In this document: one piece after another, positions 1-13,095 of the stretch | How positions within the stretch are numbered: position 1 is the first letter of the stretch | How the letters are laid out: the number at the start of each line of letters is the position of its first letter | Assembly: GCA_002719815.1 (NCBI GenBank) | Contig: PBET01000016.1 | Coordinates: 16,514 to 48,735, forward strand | DNA from: Methanobacteriota archaeon | GTDB taxonomy: Archaea > Thermoplasmatota > Poseidoniia > Poseidoniales > Poseidoniaceae | Direction: 5' to 3' | DNA length: 32,222 nt | Notes under the pieces: generated by a model | Databases searched by the model: none | What the model was told of the DNA's origin: nothing | Seen by the model: only the letters and a program-made list of their open reading frames with translations | Program-made: the position numbers and the translations under genes

Positions 1-13
1 AGGAGTTGATGGA

Positions 14-805
14 ATGACCAAACTTCTTGAAATCAAAGGACTTTCGTTTCAATATGGGGCGCATGAAGTTCTGAAAAATTTGGAACTTGAGGTCTTTGAA
101 AATGAACTCGTTTGTGTTTTAGGTGTAAATGGGGCTGGAAAATCCACCCTGCTAAAATGCATTAACAGGATTTTACCATCAACATCAGTTAAACTCGAAC
201 TTGATTCAATGAGTTTGAGTGAATTAGATCAAGTTGAGTTATCAAAACTCGTCTCTTATGTCCCGCAGTCTGTTAAATCTGGATTCTCAATCGATGTTTT
301 TGATGTTGTCATGTTGGGTCGAAGACCGTTCATCAATTGGACGATCAGCGAATACGACCGAGAGATTGTAAGCAGAACGCTTCGATACTTTGGTTTAGAA
401 GAATTTGCATTCCGCAAATTCAACATGCTTTCAGGGGGAGAACGTCAACGTGTGATTATTGCAAAAGCCATTGCGCAACAACCCCGTCTGTTCTTGCTCG
501 ATGAACCAACCAGCGATTTGGATTTGAACAATCAAATTCAAGTAATGAAGAAAATAAAGTCGCTCGTTTCAGATAAGGAGAACCCACGATCTGCACTTTT
601 AGCAATTCATGACATTAACATCGCATCACGATTTGCAGATCGTATCGTTCTGTTATCCAACGGTGAAATTGTGGCCAATGGAGCTCCTATGGATGTTTTA
701 ACTCCAGAAAATATCGCAAAAGTATTCAGAGTATCATCAGAGGTTTACATCCCTGCTTTGGGGCCAATTCAAATTATAATTAAAGATGAAATAATACAAG
801 AATAA
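14..805 (+). CDS. ABC transporter ATP-binding protein, siderophore/cobalamin (FecE/BtuD-like) type
   Basis: This is a 263-residue cytoplasmic ATPase expected to power import of an iron-siderophore, haem or cobalamin through a membrane permease. Visible motifs are the Walker A GVNGAGKST near residue 38, a Q-loop (YVPQS), the signature LSGGERQRV, Walker B LFLLDEPT and the H-loop in AIHDIN. The sequence VMLGRRPFINW after the Q-loop is typical of the FecE/BtuD subfamily. A Shine-Dalgarno AGGAG lies at bases 1-5, just ahead of the ATG. The permease and binding protein are not in the window and probably lie to the left. A HugZ-like gene follows after a short gap on the same strand, which supports an iron or haem role. 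The family is clear; the substrate is inferred. Confidence 0.9.
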   Translation: MTKLLEIKGLSFQYGAHEVLKNLELEVFENELVCVLGVNGAGKSTLLKCINRILPSTSVKLELDSMSLSELDQVELSKLVSYVPQSVKSGFSIDVFDVVMLGRRPFINWTISEYDREIVSRTLRYFGLEEFAFRKFNMLSGGERQRVIIAKAIAQQPRLFLLDEPTSDLDLNNQIQVMKKIKSLVSDKENPRSALLAIHDINIASRFADRIVLLSNGEIVANGAPMDVLTPENIAKVFRVSSEVYIPALGPIQIIIKDEIIQE

Positions 806-818
806 GAGCGTGAGTAGA

Positions 819-1652
819 ATGACAGAACACCAAGAGAAAAAGAAATTTACAAAGCATGCATCTCCGACAGCAGACGGTTCAACAAGACCAGAATTACTGT
901 ATGATCGAAATGTGGCGAGGCCGACCCACGCTGAAGATGCAAGAACACTAACTGAAAAAATGGATGTGGCGACGTTATGTACAATTTCTGAGAAATCAGA
1001 AGGCCATCCCTATGGTTCCTTTGTAACCTATGCGATGCATGAAGGTAGCCCAATATTCCTCTTAAGTCAATTAGCGGAACATACAAAAAACCTCAATGCT
1101 AATGGAAAAGCGTCTTTATTGATTGCAGAAACAGGTACAGGTAATCCGCTTGCATTGAGTAGAGTCACATTGGTAGGTGAATGCCTTGAAGTCTCAAAGG
1201 AAGAGCGAGAGTCAGTCAAGAATTCGTTTTTACAAGCTCATGAAAGCGCCAGTGTTTACGCTGATTGGGAAGACTTTTCCTTTTTCAAATTAGATGTGCA
1301 ATCTGTCCGTTACATTGGTGGTTTTGGGAGGATGTCTTGGGTGAATCAATCAAAGTGGAACACTGCAGAGCCAGACCCGATGTTTGACTACTCTGATGAC
1401 ATCATAACACACATGAACGAAGATCATGCTGATGCCCTTTTGCTGTATTGTAAAACAATGAGCAAAGCCACAGATGCTTCCGATGCAGTCATGACGCACA
1501 TCGACCGCTACGGATTTGAGATGATGGCAACGGTCGATTCAGAAAAAAAACCAATTCGTCTAGCATTTGAATCGGATGTAACAGACTCCGACCAAGCAAG
1601 AATTGAACTGGTTCGCATGGTCAAAAAGGCTCGAAAAATGTTGAGCGATTGA
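819..1652 (+). CDS. HugZ-like haem utilisation protein (pyridoxamine oxidase-like split barrel plus DUF2470)
   Basis: The N-terminal part (about residues 35-180) resembles the FMN-binding split-barrel fold of pyridoxamine-phosphate-oxidase-like proteins. It includes ATLCTIS, a GHPYGSFVTY segment and a conserved HTKNLNAN stretch. The C-terminal part begins MFDYSDDIITHMNEDHADAL, which is typical of DUF2470. This arrangement is known from HugZ/HutZ proteins, which bind or degrade haem and release iron. The gene follows a siderophore/haem-type ATPase by 13 bases, so co-transcription and a role in haem iron acquisition are likely. An in-frame GTG at 810 is an alternative start; the ATG at 819 is preferred because a GTGAG sequence sits just upstream. 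The 3' end stops one base from the oppositely oriented rfbB. Haem-degrading activity itself is inferred. Confidence 0.8.
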   Translation: MTEHQEKKKFTKHASPTADGSTRPELLYDRNVARPTHAEDARTLTEKMDVATLCTISEKSEGHPYGSFVTYAMHEGSPIFLLSQLAEHTKNLNANGKASLLIAETGTGNPLALSRVTLVGECLEVSKEERESVKNSFLQAHESASVYADWEDFSFFKLDVQSVRYIGGFGRMSWVNQSKWNTAEPDPMFDYSDDIITHMNEDHADALLLYCKTMSKATDASDAVMTHIDRYGFEMMATVDSEKKPIRLAFESDVTDSDQARIELVRMVKKARKMLSD

Positions 1653-2698: not shown

Positions 2699-3478
2699 CT
2701 ATTCACTCACCGCTGGAAGCCATGGGCCTAAATTCCATTTTCGCATGAGGACGGATGTTTCAAGCAACGCATCAAGCGTTCCGCAATCGGCCCAATGAGA
2801 ATCAAAATGACATCCTTTTGCTAGATTCTTTTGCATAAATAATCTGTTAATATCCGTAATTTCCAATTCTCCGCGATTAGAATATCCCGTAGTTTCAAGG
2901 ATTTCATCAATCATATCGTAGACTCTTGGAGTATACATATACAGCCCAGTTATGGCAAGATTTGAATCCGATGCCTTGGGTTTTTCTTCCATGTTGACGA
3001 TTCTACCGTTCCCATCAATCCATGCTATTCCAAAGGAACCTGGATCATTTACTGGTTTCAAAAATAAGTAACAATCATGGGTATCATCTTCGAGAAATTC
3101 ATTTGCATGCGATTTCATGGATTGTTCGAATACATTATCGCCAAGTATCACTGCAACATTTCGTAATCCTACGAATCCTTTTGTTAATCGTAGTGCTTCC
3201 GCAATCCCACCGGCTTGTTCTTGGTATGCGTAACGGATGTCTAAGCCAAACCTGTGCCCATCGCCTAGCAGAGCAAAAAATGAATTGCCAGAATAGCCTC
3301 CGAGTACAATCATAATTTCTTTGATACCCATTCGGGCCAACGTTGCCACTGATTTGCAAATCATCGGTTCGTCGTACACTGGCAAAAGATGTTTGTTCGT
3401 TGACGTTGTAAGTGGCATTAAGCGTGTGCCCCAACCTCCTGCCAGAACGACGCCACAAATGTCTCTCGACTTTGGCAT
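2699..3478 (-). CDS. rfbA: Glucose-1-phosphate thymidylyltransferase (RmlA/RfbA family)
   Basis: The enzyme joins dTTP and glucose-1-phosphate to make dTDP-glucose, the first step of deoxysugar synthesis. The nucleotide-binding motif LAGGWGTRLMPLT and the substrate-contacting NKHLLPVYDEPMI are at the N-terminus, and VILGDNVF supplies the metal-binding Asp. GLYMYTPRVYDM and the GELEITDINR segment are also typical of the family. The length of 259 residues is slightly short of bacterial RmlA (about 290) and matches the shorter archaeal and bacterial nucleotidyltransferases of this group. It precedes rfbB in the same operon. Its promoter region is shared divergently with an unknown membrane protein gene and contains a perfect inverted repeat at 3502-3517. 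A related uridylyl or other NDP-sugar specificity cannot be excluded. Confidence 0.88.
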   Translation of the reverse strand: MPKSRDICGVVLAGGWGTRLMPLTTSTNKHLLPVYDEPMICKSVATLARMGIKEIMIVLGGYSGNSFFALLGDGHRFGLDIRYAYQEQAGGIAEALRLTKGFVGLRNVAVILGDNVFEQSMKSHANEFLEDDTHDCYLFLKPVNDPGSFGIAWIDGNGRIVNMEEKPKASDSNLAITGLYMYTPRVYDMIDEILETTGYSNRGELEITDINRLFMQKNLAKGCHFDSHWADCGTLDALLETSVLMRKWNLGPWLPAVSE

Positions 3479-3501: not shown

Positions 3502-3517
3502 TTTAGGTTTACCTAAA
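3502..3517. promoter_or_regulatory. Inverted repeat in divergent promoter (candidate repressor operator)
   Basis: TTTAGGT-TT-ACCTAAA is a perfect 7-base inverted repeat with a 2-base spacer. It lies in the 68-base gap between rfbA (minus strand) and the membrane protein gene (plus strand). An AT-rich TTTAAG/CTTAAA sequence at about 3517-3523 could serve as a TATA element for either direction, so a bound protein would block transcription. The core TTAGG-N4-CCTAA is shared with the site at 9225-9238 and recalls half-sites recognised by DtxR/IdeR-family metalloregulators. Regulator identity is inferred. Confidence 0.5.
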
Positions 3518-3546: not shown

Positions 3547-4254
3547 GTGGGAACAAAGAATAGATTCCAACTTTCCTCGGTGCTTAACAAGAATTTTGTC
3601 ATCGATTTGGTTGAGCACATCTCTCCTTTCTTGATGTTCATTCTATTATTCGCTCCACATGTATCCTATGTCGCACCAATTGTAATGGTAATGATACTCG
3701 CCTACCGAAATATTTTGAGAGAAAGTAGGATTTTACATAACAGCCGTTTTTGGTTCCTTGGGTTTGTGCTGTACTGTCTCGCAATTGCGATCAATGTTAA
3801 CGAAAGCGTGAGCAATGGACTGATTATGTTGACGATATGTTTCATGGTGGTCCTGCTCTCAGAATCAAATCAGTTACCAGCAACAACACTTTATTCGAAC
3901 ATGATGATAGGTTTGGTAATAACGCATGAAATACTGCTTTGTCTGTTTACAGAGTTTAGCATTGGGAGTCTTCTGATTCTCCTCGTTCTTGGGATTTTGT
4001 TGAATTATGTTAGGTTAGAAACTGACTCGCAAACGATGGGAGTTCTGTTTGGTTGTTTCGTTGGCGTTCATGCTGTGGGTTGGACACTTTCAGGAGATCC
4101 ATTTGTTAACACAGCATTTGAAATCGACGAAATAGTTCGAAATTGGATTAAATTCATCAGCGCACCTATATTGGGTGTATTGGTGTTTTATGGAACCAAA
4201 TTCACTCTTGAGTTATTCAATCAAGTGGAAGATAAAGTGTTTGAAGAATCTTAA
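3547..4254 (+). CDS. Unrecognised multi-pass membrane protein
   Basis: I do not recognise this 235-residue protein. It is very hydrophobic, with about six or seven probable membrane segments (around residues 27-50, 68-86, 90-106, 117-135, 137-152, 162-180 and 198-218). Charged loops such as YRNILRESRIL lie between them. The start is a GTG preceded by GGAGG at 3539-3543, a strong ribosome-binding sequence at unusually short spacing. Its 3' end overlaps the end of the convergent aminotransferase gene by 38 bases. Its position inside a dTDP-sugar gene group suggests a role in glycan assembly or export, such as a polymerase- or flippase-like function, but nothing in the sequence shows this. Divergent transcription from rfbA suggests shared regulation. 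Confidence 0.65.
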   Translation: MGTKNRFQLSSVLNKNFVIDLVEHISPFLMFILLFAPHVSYVAPIVMVMILAYRNILRESRILHNSRFWFLGFVLYCLAIAINVNESVSNGLIMLTICFMVVLLSESNQLPATTLYSNMMIGLVITHEILLCLFTEFSIGSLLILLVLGILLNYVRLETDSQTMGVLFGCFVGVHAVGWTLSGDPFVNTAFEIDEIVRNWIKFISAPILGVLVFYGTKFTLELFNQVEDKVFEES

Positions 4255-9224: not shown

Positions 9225-9238
9225 TTAGGGTGCCCTAA
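9225..9238. promoter_or_regulatory. Inverted repeat TTAGGG-TG-CCCTAA (candidate operator)
   Basis: This is a perfect 6-base inverted repeat with a 2-base spacer, in the 58-base divergent gap between the flippase-like gene and the PhnD gene. It shares the pattern TTAGG-N4-CCTAA with the repeat at 3502-3517. It lies just downstream of a TATA-like box, where a repressor would block initiation. The same regulator may therefore act at both promoters. No regulator gene is visible in the window. Confidence 0.5.
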
Positions 9239-9249
9239 CATTCATAACC

Positions 9250-11400
9250 ATGCTCTGTTTGGCCCGACGCATGAAGAAAGGTAGAAACACTGGAAATGCA
9301 TACAAAGCAATTGCTATGGTTACATTCATGTTGATGTTTTCATTCTCCGGTTGTATCGGAGAAGATTCCGACAAAACCAATGGCGCAACTGACATAAATG
9401 ACCAAGGACAAATTGATTCATTGGTTGTTGCATTCGAAGTAAAGGATACTTACACCAACATCGATGATAACCCGCAGAAATTTGCAGATTATCTTGAGGA
9501 GAAATTAGATGCTCCTGTAACCCTCTATCCAGTCGACGGCGAAGGGGCAGCCATTGAAGCATTGCGCTTCGGACATGCTGACCTAGCATTCATGGATGGT
9601 GGCTCGGCATGGATTGGCTGGCAACAATATGATCTGGCAGTACTTGCCTCAGAAACCAAACCAGACGGACGTCATTGGTATGGCGCTCGTGCCGTTGTTC
9701 GAGCAGGAAGCGATATTGCAGAAGCCCACCTTGATGACGATGTTTACACCGACCCATTCGCAACTTTCCAAGGCAAGACCCCTTGCCATACAGGATGGTT
9801 GAAATCTGCAGGAATGTTGTTGCCTATGGGCTATCTCATCGGTAACGGGTATGCCAATGTCATTGGCGACCCAAACACTGTAGAATCAATGCGAAATACG
9901 ATTTATGCATTCTTCAACGAAGACGCATCGATTCCAGAAGTAGGAGACACATACTACAGTTACAAAGGCGCTCTACGTTGTCTGTCAGAGGAACGAGGAG
10001 ACATAGCATTCGTCGCTGACACCACGCTTGATTACTACTGCGTTGATCGAGTCGAGAGCAATTCATGGTGTTTGGATGAATCCGAATACGTGGAACTACC
10101 GCTTTTCGGACGTGCTCCTGGTCACCCTGTAATGTACAATCCAGCAACAATGAGCGATGAAAAAGCAAGCATCGTCAAGAAAGTACTTATCGAGATGGAA
10201 GACGATGAGGTAGGGCAAGAGATTCTTGAAGACATTATCAACTCACCACAAGGCATCGTTGATGTAGGAACTACTGAAGACCACCTTGGGACCTACTCCG
10301 CCGCCATCCGAAACATCCCAGGCATACAAGCCTACTATGGTGGGAAATATGGTGTCGACACTGCAGTCTCTCCAACAAAGAACCCGATTATCATCGCATA
10401 TGAAGTCCGAGACACCTACGAAAACATCGATGCAAACCCACAACTTCTCGCAGATCGACTCGCTAAGAAACTCAATGTAAGTGTTGAGTTGTATGATGTT
10501 TCTTCAGAAGGAGCCATCATTGAAGCGCTTCGTTTCGGTCATGCAGATATCGGCTTTATGGACGGCGGTGCTGCATGGGTTGGCTGGAAGGAATACGGTT
10601 TGCAAGCACTTGCTGCAGATTTGAAACCAGACGGACGCTCATGGTACGGTGCGCAAGCATACGTCCGAGCTGACAGCGACATGGCACAAGCCTTCCTCGA
10701 CGACGATGATTCAACTGATCCGTTCGCATTGTTTGAGGGTAAAACTTCGTGTCATACTGGGTGGTTAAAATCTGCAGGTATGTTGTTGCCGATGGGTTAC
10801 CTCATCGGTAATGGTTATGCGGAGGTTGTTGGTGATCCGAACGATGTTGCCTCCCTAAGAGATACAATCTACAATTTCTTCAATGAAGATGCATCGATTC
10901 CAGACTCTGGTGACTTCTATTACAGCTATGAAGGCGCACTACGATGTCTCTCTGAAGACCGTGGTGATATCGCATTCATCGCAGATACGACATACGACTA
11001 CAATTGTGTTCAGAAGCAACGCAACTGGTGCTTAGAAAATGAAGACGGCTCCTCAGGATACGTTGCACTTCCATTGTTCGGAAAGGCTCCAAGTCACCCA
11101 ATCATGTACAATCCAGATACAATGGACATGTACACTAGAGCTGCGATTCTTACTGCACTCATGGATATGAATGGTGAAGAATGGATCGACGAAGGATCTG
11201 GTTACTGCTACAACTCACTGACTCGCGACGTTGACAACGAGATTCCACAAAACATGTGTGGCGACTCAATTCTCGATGAAGTCCTCAACACAGGTGGCCT
11301 CGTTGCAGTCAATACGCAAGAGCACATGGGTAGTTACTCTGATTCGATTTCAAATGTCCCAGGAATTGCAGCATACTTCGATGGAAAATACGATATCTGA
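9250..11400 (+). CDS. phnD: Lipoprotein with two tandem PhnD-like substrate-binding domains
   Basis: This extracytoplasmic binding protein is for a phosphonate/phosphate-type importer. A basic N-terminus and hydrophobic stretch end in the lipobox FSGC (Cys35 from the first ATG), followed by an acidic linker. Domain 1 covers about residues 57-375 and domain 2 about 379-716. They are clear duplicates: GFMDGGAAWVGW and AFMDGGSAWIGW, KPDGRHWYGA and KPDGRSWYGA, and CHTGWLKSAGMLLPMGYLIG appears in both. The matching positions are 966 bases apart. Each half keeps several cysteines, and domain 2 has an extra Cys-containing insert near residues 655-680. Usual PhnD proteins have one domain of about 300-340 residues. 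An ATG at 9271 gives a more typical signal peptide and may be the true start. One ATPase and one permease gene follow. The ligand is unproven. Confidence 0.9.
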   Translation: MLCLARRMKKGRNTGNAYKAIAMVTFMLMFSFSGCIGEDSDKTNGATDINDQGQIDSLVVAFEVKDTYTNIDDNPQKFADYLEEKLDAPVTLYPVDGEGAAIEALRFGHADLAFMDGGSAWIGWQQYDLAVLASETKPDGRHWYGARAVVRAGSDIAEAHLDDDVYTDPFATFQGKTPCHTGWLKSAGMLLPMGYLIGNGYANVIGDPNTVESMRNTIYAFFNEDASIPEVGDTYYSYKGALRCLSEERGDIAFVADTTLDYYCVDRVESNSWCLDESEYVELPLFGRAPGHPVMYNPATMSDEKASIVKKVLIEMEDDEVGQEILEDIINSPQGIVDVGTTEDHLGTYSAAIRNIPGIQAYYGGKYGVDTAVSPTKNPIIIAYEVRDTYENIDANPQLLADRLAKKLNVSVELYDVSSEGAIIEALRFGHADIGFMDGGAAWVGWKEYGLQALAADLKPDGRSWYGAQAYVRADSDMAQAFLDDDDSTDPFALFEGKTSCHTGWLKSAGMLLPMGYLIGNGYAEVVGDPNDVASLRDTIYNFFNEDASIPDSGDFYYSYEGALRCLSEDRGDIAFIADTTYDYNCVQKQRNWCLENEDGSSGYVALPLFGKAPSHPIMYNPDTMDMYTRAAILTALMDMNGEEWIDEGSGYCYNSLTRDVDNEIPQNMCGDSILDEVLNTGGLVAVNTQEHMGSYSDSISNVPGIAAYFDGKYDI

Positions 11401-11453
11401 TATCGTTTGCCTACAAACAGGTGAGAGTCCTGAATGGGCTTAGGGTGGTTGAT

Positions 11454-12131
11454 GTGGATGAGGACGATGCTGTTGGAGGCTATGACCTCTCAATAGGATA
11501 CGAACGCGATGCCGTCCTGCTAGAAGACATCAACATGTCACTAAAACCCGGTGAAATCGTTGCGGTCAATGGAGCCTCTGGAATTGGTAAAACAACGCTC
11601 TTGCGAACCTTTGCCGGCCTTCTTAATCCCCTTGAAGGCAAAGTTAGTATTTTTGGAAAGACAAAAGCAGACCGCGGAGAAGTGGGCTACATACCGCAAC
11701 GTTTGGGATTGATACGACATGCGAGCGTTCATCACAACGTAATGATGGGTGCAAAAGCAGGCCACACCTCTGCATGGTTTCCGTTTTCGAAGGTATGTAA
11801 GCATCACACGCTTGAGGCTATCGATTCTGTGGGATTAATGCACAAACTCCGAACCCCGATCCGAAAACTTTCCGGAGGACAGCAACGTCGTGTTGCTGTC
11901 GCAAGAACACTTGCCCAGAAACCTCGATTGATATTAGCGGATGAATTCTTATCTGAACTTGACGAAGAAACCCTGAGCATGGTGATGCAAAAGGTTCTGG
12001 ATTATGTCAAAGAGAATAATGCAATCATGATTCTCGTCGAGCACGATTTTGAACGAGCAATGCAGATGGCAGATCGTTTGTTTACGGCCGTCGATGGCAA
12101 ACTGGTTGAAATCGGAGCAAATGGGGCGTGA
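11454..12131 (+). CDS. phnC: Phosphonate/phosphate-type ABC transporter ATPase
   Basis: The motor subunit of the importer, located on the cytoplasmic face. Walker A is GASGIGKTT, the Q-loop region is VGYIPQRLGLI, the signature is LSGGQQRRV, Walker B ends in LILADE, and the H-loop is LVEHD. The residue after the Walker B Glu is Phe (DEFLSELD), where most ABC ATPases have Pro. The D-loop is otherwise recognisable. The open frame reaches back to a GTG at 11421, but a GTG at 11454 is preceded by GGTGG at 11443-11447 with good spacing; the true start is uncertain. The gene lies 53 bases after the PhnD gene, and its end overlaps the permease gene by 11 bases, so all three form one operon. Confidence 0.85.
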   Translation: MDEDDAVGGYDLSIGYERDAVLLEDINMSLKPGEIVAVNGASGIGKTTLLRTFAGLLNPLEGKVSIFGKTKADRGEVGYIPQRLGLIRHASVHHNVMMGAKAGHTSAWFPFSKVCKHHTLEAIDSVGLMHKLRTPIRKLSGGQQRRVAVARTLAQKPRLILADEFLSELDEETLSMVMQKVLDYVKENNAIMILVEHDFERAMQMADRLFTAVDGKLVEIGANGA

Positions 12132-13095
12132 TACATTGTCAAAGTTGCCCACAAGCGTTGAGTTGGAAGAGAAAACCAACCATCTGCAGAATGCATGGTT
12201 CCAATGGCGTTATCCCATGATTTTATTCTCATTGTTTGTTTTTGCAATAGGCGTTACACACTCAACAATCGAAGGGAATTGGCAGAAATTGTTTGAAAGC
12301 CCAAAAAACATTGTTACCTTCTTTAGCGAGTCATTATGGCCACCGGATTGGTCTGTTATTGAGCCTCAGGCATACCCCGTTTGCGAGGAGCCAAAATATC
12401 TCGATTTTACTTGCTCTACAGCGTGGATAGGAGTTCTTGAAACCTTGAAAATAGCTTTTGTTGCAACGATATTTGGGATGGTCATATCGTATCCCCTCGC
12501 AATACTTGCTGCTGAAAATCTTAGCCCAGGTTGGATTTCATACCCTGCACGAACCTTCCTTGCAGCTTTTCGAAGTCTTCCGAGTATCCTATGGGCGATA
12601 TTGTTCGTAATCATGGTCGGTTTAGGTCCGATGGCGGGTATTTTGGCCATGACCCTATACACCGTTGGTTACCTTGGAAAATTGCAGTATGAGGCAATCG
12701 AAGGTGTCGCAAAACCACAACTTGACGCATCCCGGGCCATGGGACATGGTTGGTTTGAGCGCTCGTTCGGCGTTGTCCTTCCAGAATCCGCAAACAATCT
12801 TATCTCGCAAGCTATTTTCATGTTTGAATATAATTTCAGACATGGAACAGTCATTGGGATTGTCGGCGCTGGAGGAATTGGATATTACATCAATTTGTAC
12901 CTGAAATTCTTGCAATATGACAAGGTGTTTGCCTATGTAATCATAATTTTCATTGTTGTAATACTCCTTGATCTATTGTCGAAGTTAGTACGTTCGTTTT
13001 TCAAAGACGACAAGCAACAAAACAGACCCCCATGGTGGACCGGCCTGTTTTTACCAGCAGGATGGACAAAAAACTTACTGAGAAAAGAAGATTAG
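12121..13095 (+). CDS. phnE: Phosphonate/phosphate-type ABC transporter permease
   Basis: The membrane channel subunit, about 324 residues. Hydrophobic helices appear near residues 31-47, 112-135, 148-195, 250-270 and 280-300. The cytoplasmic coupling loop with the EAA-type pattern is seen in YEAIEGVAKPQLDASRAMG, followed by VVLPES and IGIVGAGGIGYYI, which match PhnE-family permeases. The frame is open upstream to 12049, deep inside phnC. The ATG at 12121 is preferred because GGAG lies just ahead and the start overlaps the phnC stop in the usual coupled way. A single permease gene implies a homodimeric channel serving the double-domain binding protein. The stop codon overlaps that of the convergent small gene at 13092. 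No phosphonate-degrading genes are near, so phosphate, phosphite or an ester are alternative cargoes. Confidence 0.88.
   Translation: MGRDTLSKLPTSVELEEKTNHLQNAWFQWRYPMILFSLFVFAIGVTHSTIEGNWQKLFESPKNIVTFFSESLWPPDWSVIEPQAYPVCEEPKYLDFTCSTAWIGVLETLKIAFVATIFGMVISYPLAILAAENLSPGWISYPARTFLAAFRSLPSILWAILFVIMVGLGPMAGILAMTLYTVGYLGKLQYEAIEGVAKPQLDASRAMGHGWFERSFGVVLPESANNLISQAIFMFEYNFRHGTVIGIVGAGGIGYYINLYLKFLQYDKVFAYVIIIFIVVILLDLLSKLVRSFFKDDKQQNRPPWWTGLFLPAGWTKNLLRKED

Follow-up and report, generated by a model that had tools for sequence, protein, structure and literature searches.

A predicted bilobal transferrin-type Fe(III) receptor lipoprotein and its PhnC/PhnE-type ABC importer in a Poseidoniales archaeon

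The ferric-binding proteins of the FbpA family, also called 'bacterial transferrins', are single-lobed and serve binding-protein-dependent ABC importers for Fe(III). Animal transferrins (serum, ovo-, lacto- and melanotransferrin; PF00405) are bilobal and act as ligands for receptor endocytosis; in human numbering, Thr120 and Arg124 hold the carbonate, and C118 and C194 form a disulfide. The Fe(III) ligands of human transferrin are Asp63, Tyr95, Tyr188 and His249 together with carbonate (PMC9957567). In diatoms and green algae, phytotransferrin ISIP2a and Fea1 capture Fe(III) at the cell surface and are taken up by endocytosis. The PhnD/PtxB/AioX-type binding proteins of PhnCDE importers (PF12974) have a type 2 periplasmic-binding fold. 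A general link between transferrins and phosphonate-binding proteins is already published: according to the summary given in PMC7676907, McQuaid 2018 derived both ISIP2a and transferrin from phosphonate-binding periplasmic proteins. Full-text literature searches, largely confined to openly accessible papers, returned no description of a bilobal prokaryotic transferrin.

The window, i.e., the whole analysed stretch of 32,222 nucleotides from a Poseidoniales (Marine Group II) archaeon (contig PBET01000016.1, positions 16,514 to 48,735), contains a gene whose product is very probably a bilobal transferrin-type Fe(III)-binding lipoprotein serving as the receptor of an iron-regulated ABC importer with PhnC/PhnE-type parts. 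We infer metal binding, the role of carbonate, transport and repression from homology, conservation of the ligands, operon order, promoter boxes and gene neighbours. The features discussed below are, in window coordinates:

2..805, plus strand: ABC ATPase of a linked FecCD-type system (ABC_tran 1.3e-26), continuing upstream of the window
810..1652, plus strand: HugZ-like protein (PNPOx fold and DUF2470 by Pfam), possible heme oxygenase; best NCBIfam match HugZ, 72 bits, below the cut-off of 240
3503..3516, no strand assigned: second IdeR/DtxR-type box in the window, exact match TTAGGTTTACCTAA
9212..9218, plus strand: TATA-like element (TATATTT), putative promoter, read from the sequence
9225..9238, no strand assigned: IdeR/DtxR-type operator box TTAGGGTGCCCTAA, exact match to the 14-bp consensus TTAGGNNNNCCTAA; immediately upstream of the start codon
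9250..11400, plus strand: bilobal transferrin-like lipoprotein, 716 aa, alternative start at 9271 possible (Pfam, PDB matches, AlphaFold2 and Foldseek)
9352..9354, plus strand: lipobox cysteine Cys35 (FSGC-IGED after a hydrophobic stretch)
9400..10365, plus strand: N lobe (alignment to ovotransferrin columns)
9595, 9679, 9961 and 10123, plus strand: predicted N-lobe Fe ligands D116, Y144, Y238 and H292, respectively (profile alignment); predicted anion site T181 and K185, Cys pair C179/C244 (profile alignment)
10366..11397, plus strand: C lobe (alignment to ovotransferrin columns; AlphaFold2 model with pLDDT 92.5)
10561, 10645, 10927 and 11095, plus strand: predicted C-lobe Fe ligands D438, Y466, Y560 and H616, respectively (profile alignment); predicted anion site T503 and K507, Cys pair C501/C566 (profile alignment)
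11421..12131, plus strand: PhnC-like ABC ATPase (ABC_tran 2.5e-29); best NCBIfam match PhnC, 146 bits against a cut-off of 266
12124..13095, plus strand (open reading frame readable from 12049): ABC permease of the PhnE family (BPD_transp_1 5.3e-21; TIGR01097 PhnE, 241 bits against a cut-off of 216.7)

Inspection of the 716-aa product revealed a signal peptide followed by a lipobox (FSGC, Cys35), which in the homologues reads LAGC or VAGC. Residues about 51-372 can be aligned from end to end with residues 373-716 (57% identity, E 6.6e-142), and the DNA of the two lobes is 69.5% identical over 627 columns (E 2.7e-73), with a near-identical block at about 9784-9850 and 10750-10816 and an offset of 322 codons (Cys179/Cys501). 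The architecture described in the first-pass annotation, i.e., two full-length PhnD-like domains in tandem on one lipid anchor, about 322 codons apart, with near-identical blocks in protein and DNA and with a single ATPase (11421-12131) and then a single permease downstream, is therefore confirmed. Chance and an assembly artefact as sources of the duplication were both ruled out, because bilobal genes are present on independent contigs of many genomes.

The assignment of this protein to PhnD alone had missed its relationship to transferrin. In Pfam, the whole protein matches both Phosphonate-bd (PF12974; 134 bits, 7.9e-39) and Transferrin (PF00405; 105 bits, 4.6e-30, above the curated cut-off of 20.3 bits), and so does each half. 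Matches to PF00405 above the cut-off were found in 44 of the 194 genomes of the phylum and in none of the 14 controls. A search of PDB with the single sequence gave only transferrin-family proteins among the matches listed. With a profile built on 12 lobes, each taken from a different genome, the best 60 matches listed among PDB sequences all belonged to the transferrin family, including melanotransferrin (E 4e-53) and ovotransferrin (E 1.4e-52); the same profile scored 113 and 80 bits on the ovotransferrin lobes, 57-58 bits on two bacterial proteins annotated as 'phosphonate' binding, and 24 bits on E. coli PhnD. The binding protein itself stays below the PhnD equivalog cut-off (TIGR03431; 58 vs 261 bits). 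No FbpA-family match to it was found in Pfam or NCBIfam, and no Fea1 match in Pfam. While it would resemble FbpA in its mode of work, ABC import of Fe(III), it differs from this family by its second lobe and by sequence; with ISIP2a and Fea1 it would share Fe(III) capture at the surface, whereas those proteins are eukaryotic and endocytic.

AlphaFold2 predicted a periplasmic-binding lobe for both halves, with pLDDT 92.5 and pTM 0.88 for the C lobe and pLDDT 83 and pTM 0.73 for the whole mature protein. When a single lobe was compared with known structures by Foldseek, the first 22 matches were transferrins (ovotransferrin N lobe, E 8e-15) and the next one was PtxB (2.7e-13); this phosphite-binding protein comes almost as near as transferrin, and the fold by itself cannot tell the two apart. 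For the whole protein, the best 50 PDB matches were all end-to-end alignments with transferrin-family chains, with TM of only about 0.3-0.4, so that the lobe arrangement of the model either differs from that of transferrin or is uncertain. In the fold comparison, a viral library produced only weak matches.

In an alignment to ovotransferrin, with D63, Y95, Y188, H249, T120, R124, C118 and C194 of the human numbering as reference columns, both lobes show the Asp/Tyr/Tyr/His ligands, the Thr of the carbonate site and a Cys pair equivalent to C118/C194, column for column, as in the animal proteins. In contrast, a profile alignment of E. coli PhnD has no equivalents of the Asp, Thr, Tyr188 and His. 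As the residues are the same in the two lobes, the earlier suggestion that the doubled domain gives one channel two ligand specificities is not supported. These columns are almost invariant across 175 canonical lobes (53 N lobes, 53 C lobes and 69 single lobes), the exceptions being Glu for Asp in three C lobes, a gap at His in one N lobe, Asn at Tyr188 in one single lobe, and Gly for Lys in another. The Lys in question occupies the position of Arg124 in 174 of the 175 lobes, the carbonate-site Thr being kept. A natural Lys at this position occurs in cod Tf1, and Arg124Lys in human transferrin makes iron release easier (PMC3125230), which would suit a receptor handing iron to a permease. Besides this replacement, the archaeal protein has fewer cysteines than the animal transferrins and is predicted to be a lipoprotein feeding an ABC importer. 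A protein annotated as phosphonate binding on a plasmid of Leisingera (L164:1408-2265), adjoining cytochrome c peroxidase, keeps the transferrin-site Tyr, Tyr and His and has Gly for Asp; roseobacter proteins of this kind may be intermediates or may bind another metal-related ligand.

The gene order receptor-ATPase-permease is kept in nearly all loci. The permease passes the PhnE equivalog cut-off, Phosphonate-bd outscores Transferrin (134 vs 105 bits), and Lys stands for Arg124; these points count against the transferrin reading. The first would fit the proposal of the first-pass annotation, an importer of phosphonate, phosphite or phosphate with a duplicated PhnD, as would the PF12974 matches of both lobes and the 'transport of phosphonates' described as core to Marine Group II (PMC6336850). 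Such a system is nevertheless very improbable, given that both pockets carry the Fe(III)-carbonate residues of transferrin, most of which are absent from E. coli PhnD, that the binding protein lies far under the PhnD cut-off, that none of 60 relatives yielded PhnJ and none of 40 a phosphonatase over the cut-off, and that IdeR/DtxR-type boxes and iron- and heme-related genes accompany the operon (see below). Moreover, all PF12974 matches in the 40 relatives coincide with the bilobal or single-lobed transferrin-like gene family, and hence the core phosphonate transport of Marine Group II is probably this operon, i.e., a misannotated iron system. What the predicted receptor shares with PhnD-type proteins is the fold, the PF12974 match and the type of its transporter partners.

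Several neighbours of the predicted transferrin-type operon are related to iron or heme. Upstream of the window and extending into it, the same contig encodes Fea1, a large secreted protein, Peripla_BP_2, FecCD, an ABC ATPase, and the HugZ-like PNPOx/DUF2470 protein; the Fea1 homologue ('low iron-inducible periplasmic protein', 1.8e-28) is located about 15 kb from the transferrin-like gene. A single-lobed relative encoded by a UBP7 bacterium comes immediately after genes for FecCD, ATPase, Peripla_BP_2, PNPOx and heme oxygenase. A search of 40 relatives for FeoB_C gave no match. The heme- or siderophore-type ABC genes linked in these two genomes could mean that the receptor binds an iron chelate or heme and not Fe(III)-carbonate; however, four protein ligands and an anion would saturate the coordination of Fe(III), as in transferrin, and the linked FecCD system has a Peripla_BP_2 binding protein of its own, which makes this the least probable of the alternatives weighed here. 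A haloarchaeal relative on plasmid 2 of Natronococcus occultus (L158:5893-6923) carries a disrupting frameshift, has Ser in place of the Asp ligand and Ala at both cysteines of the pair, and sits between an annotated 'metal-dependent transcriptional regulator' and an ATPase and permease.

The predicted mode of regulation is consistent with an iron system. The box before the transferrin-like gene is an exact match to the consensus TTAGGNNNNCCTAA proposed for IdeR/DtxR (PMC8464063). A box of the form TTAGGnnnnCCTAA, with four variable central bases, precedes 113 of the 125 homologous genes when one mismatch is allowed, and the first box is followed by a CTTTATAA-like element in relatives. Exact boxes number 121 across 80 loci (888 kb), almost all of them immediately before the transferrin-like gene, against a single occurrence of the reversed pattern. 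A near-complete Marine Group II genome of 2.06 Mb (G033) has only two exact boxes, both at the promoter of this gene, and another near-complete relative (G031) has one, at the same place; genome G002 has none, with a one-mismatch version upstream of the homologous gene. The genome under study (1.57 Mb) contains 8 exact boxes vs 9 for the reversed control, so only their placement and clustering are informative: six of the eight lie on this contig, which makes up 3% of the genome (binomial P 2.4e-8). They are found at 9225, at 3503 and, as a pair, before Fea1, the two others on this contig being close to a small intergenic region at C16:8433/8465, and the remaining two precede a complex I operon on another contig. 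A Fe_dep_repress match was obtained in 36 of 40 relatives and not in the assembly studied, which is 72% complete; the missing match also counts against the Fe(III) reading.

Mn sensors are among the regulators of the DtxR family, and boxes of the DtxR type can therefore be sites of Mn regulators as well. The many metals bound by transferrin (PMC9957567) would also agree with a transferrin-type receptor whose ligand is Mn, some other hard metal or another oxyanion-assisted metal, under an MntR-like DtxR-family regulator. Such a receptor is very improbable, as Asp/Tyr/Tyr/His with carbonate is the Fe(III) site of transferrin, as the linked genes are those for Fea1, FecCD and the HugZ-like protein, and as boxes also stand before the complex I operon, a class of IdeR target reported in Saccharopolyspora (PMC8464063). 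The latter two boxes are 19 bp apart, just upstream of the nuoA-like gene (L152:4684-4716, contig C19). The box at 3503-3516 lies between divergent genes, one for a nucleotidyltransferase (2699-3478, minus strand) and one for a 235-aa protein that has no Pfam match (3547-4254, plus strand). Two boxes 32 bp apart on the contig of the window (L139:8433-8478, C16) are followed by no clear gene besides small open reading frames of 34-60 aa; they may control a small protein or RNA.

For the Fe(III) importer favoured here, the following mechanism can be proposed. Cys35 would anchor the protein on the outer face of the cytoplasmic membrane, and each lobe would close around a single Fe(III) coordinated by Asp, two Tyr, His and a carbonate, the last bound through Thr and Lys. 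The Lys in place of the transferrin Arg would ease release of the iron, one lobe at a time would dock on the single PhnE-type permease, and the iron would be imported using ATP. A DtxR-family repressor on the TTAGGnnnnCCTAA boxes would switch the operon off in iron-replete cells. Two sites per anchor would increase capture of scarce iron; the earlier idea that the doubled domain serves the capture of a scarce nutrient is plausible.

The two-lobed form is not confined to this genome and is widespread in Poseidoniales, where single-lobed relatives coexist with it; many relatives are single-lobed. The archaeal N lobes cluster together in a maximum-likelihood tree (87/80), as do the C lobes (94/95), and the two clusters jointly make up a starred group (95/88) inside the single-lobed forms. 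A shared origin of archaeal and animal bilobality, with the ovotransferrin N or C lobe held with its archaeal namesake, was rejected by AU tests (p 0.0008 and 0.0007), which used one animal protein with partial lobes and long animal branches. By these phylogenetic criteria, and with the caveat of a single animal protein and long animal branches, the two-lobed form is of Poseidoniales origin, separate from the animal duplication. Some single lobes fall among the N or C lobes in the tree, which suggests that one lobe was later lost. The two lobes of the window protein (9400-11397) pair with each other (98) and not with the N and C lobes of relatives, suggesting gene conversion or exchange between the halves.

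Marine Group II are among the commonest archaea of the surface ocean. We see about even chances that they take up inorganic iron, as Fe(III)-carbonate, by a bilobal transferrin which evolved from a single-lobed prokaryotic form, separately from the animal protein, and that the single-lobed archaeal and bacterial forms are living relatives of the ancestors of eukaryotic transferrins. If so, iron uptake by Marine Group II would be sensitive to carbonate, as reported for diatom phytotransferrin, and, if carbonate is needed, ocean acidification would affect the archaeal iron supply, as reported for diatoms. The operon offers a testable prokaryotic counterpart of transferrin, and the one-lobed, two-lobed and lobe-degenerate forms in related genomes are a natural experiment on why transferrins are bilobal.

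The lobe-degenerate form is a second bilobal paralogue within family f2 (L022, L021, L023-L026, L123:8360-10477), in which nearly all C-lobe ligands are lost, as are Tyr188 and His249 of the N lobe in most copies. The box is absent from this paralogue, and most of its loci keep the ATPase and permease; loss of the ligands with retained partners implies that the transporter can carry something else, which counts against the Fe(III) reading. In L021-L025, a Fea1 gene adjoins this ligand-degenerate paralogue. In L123:5932-10477, two bilobal genes, one canonical and one ligand-degenerate, stand in tandem and are followed by one ATPase and one permease.
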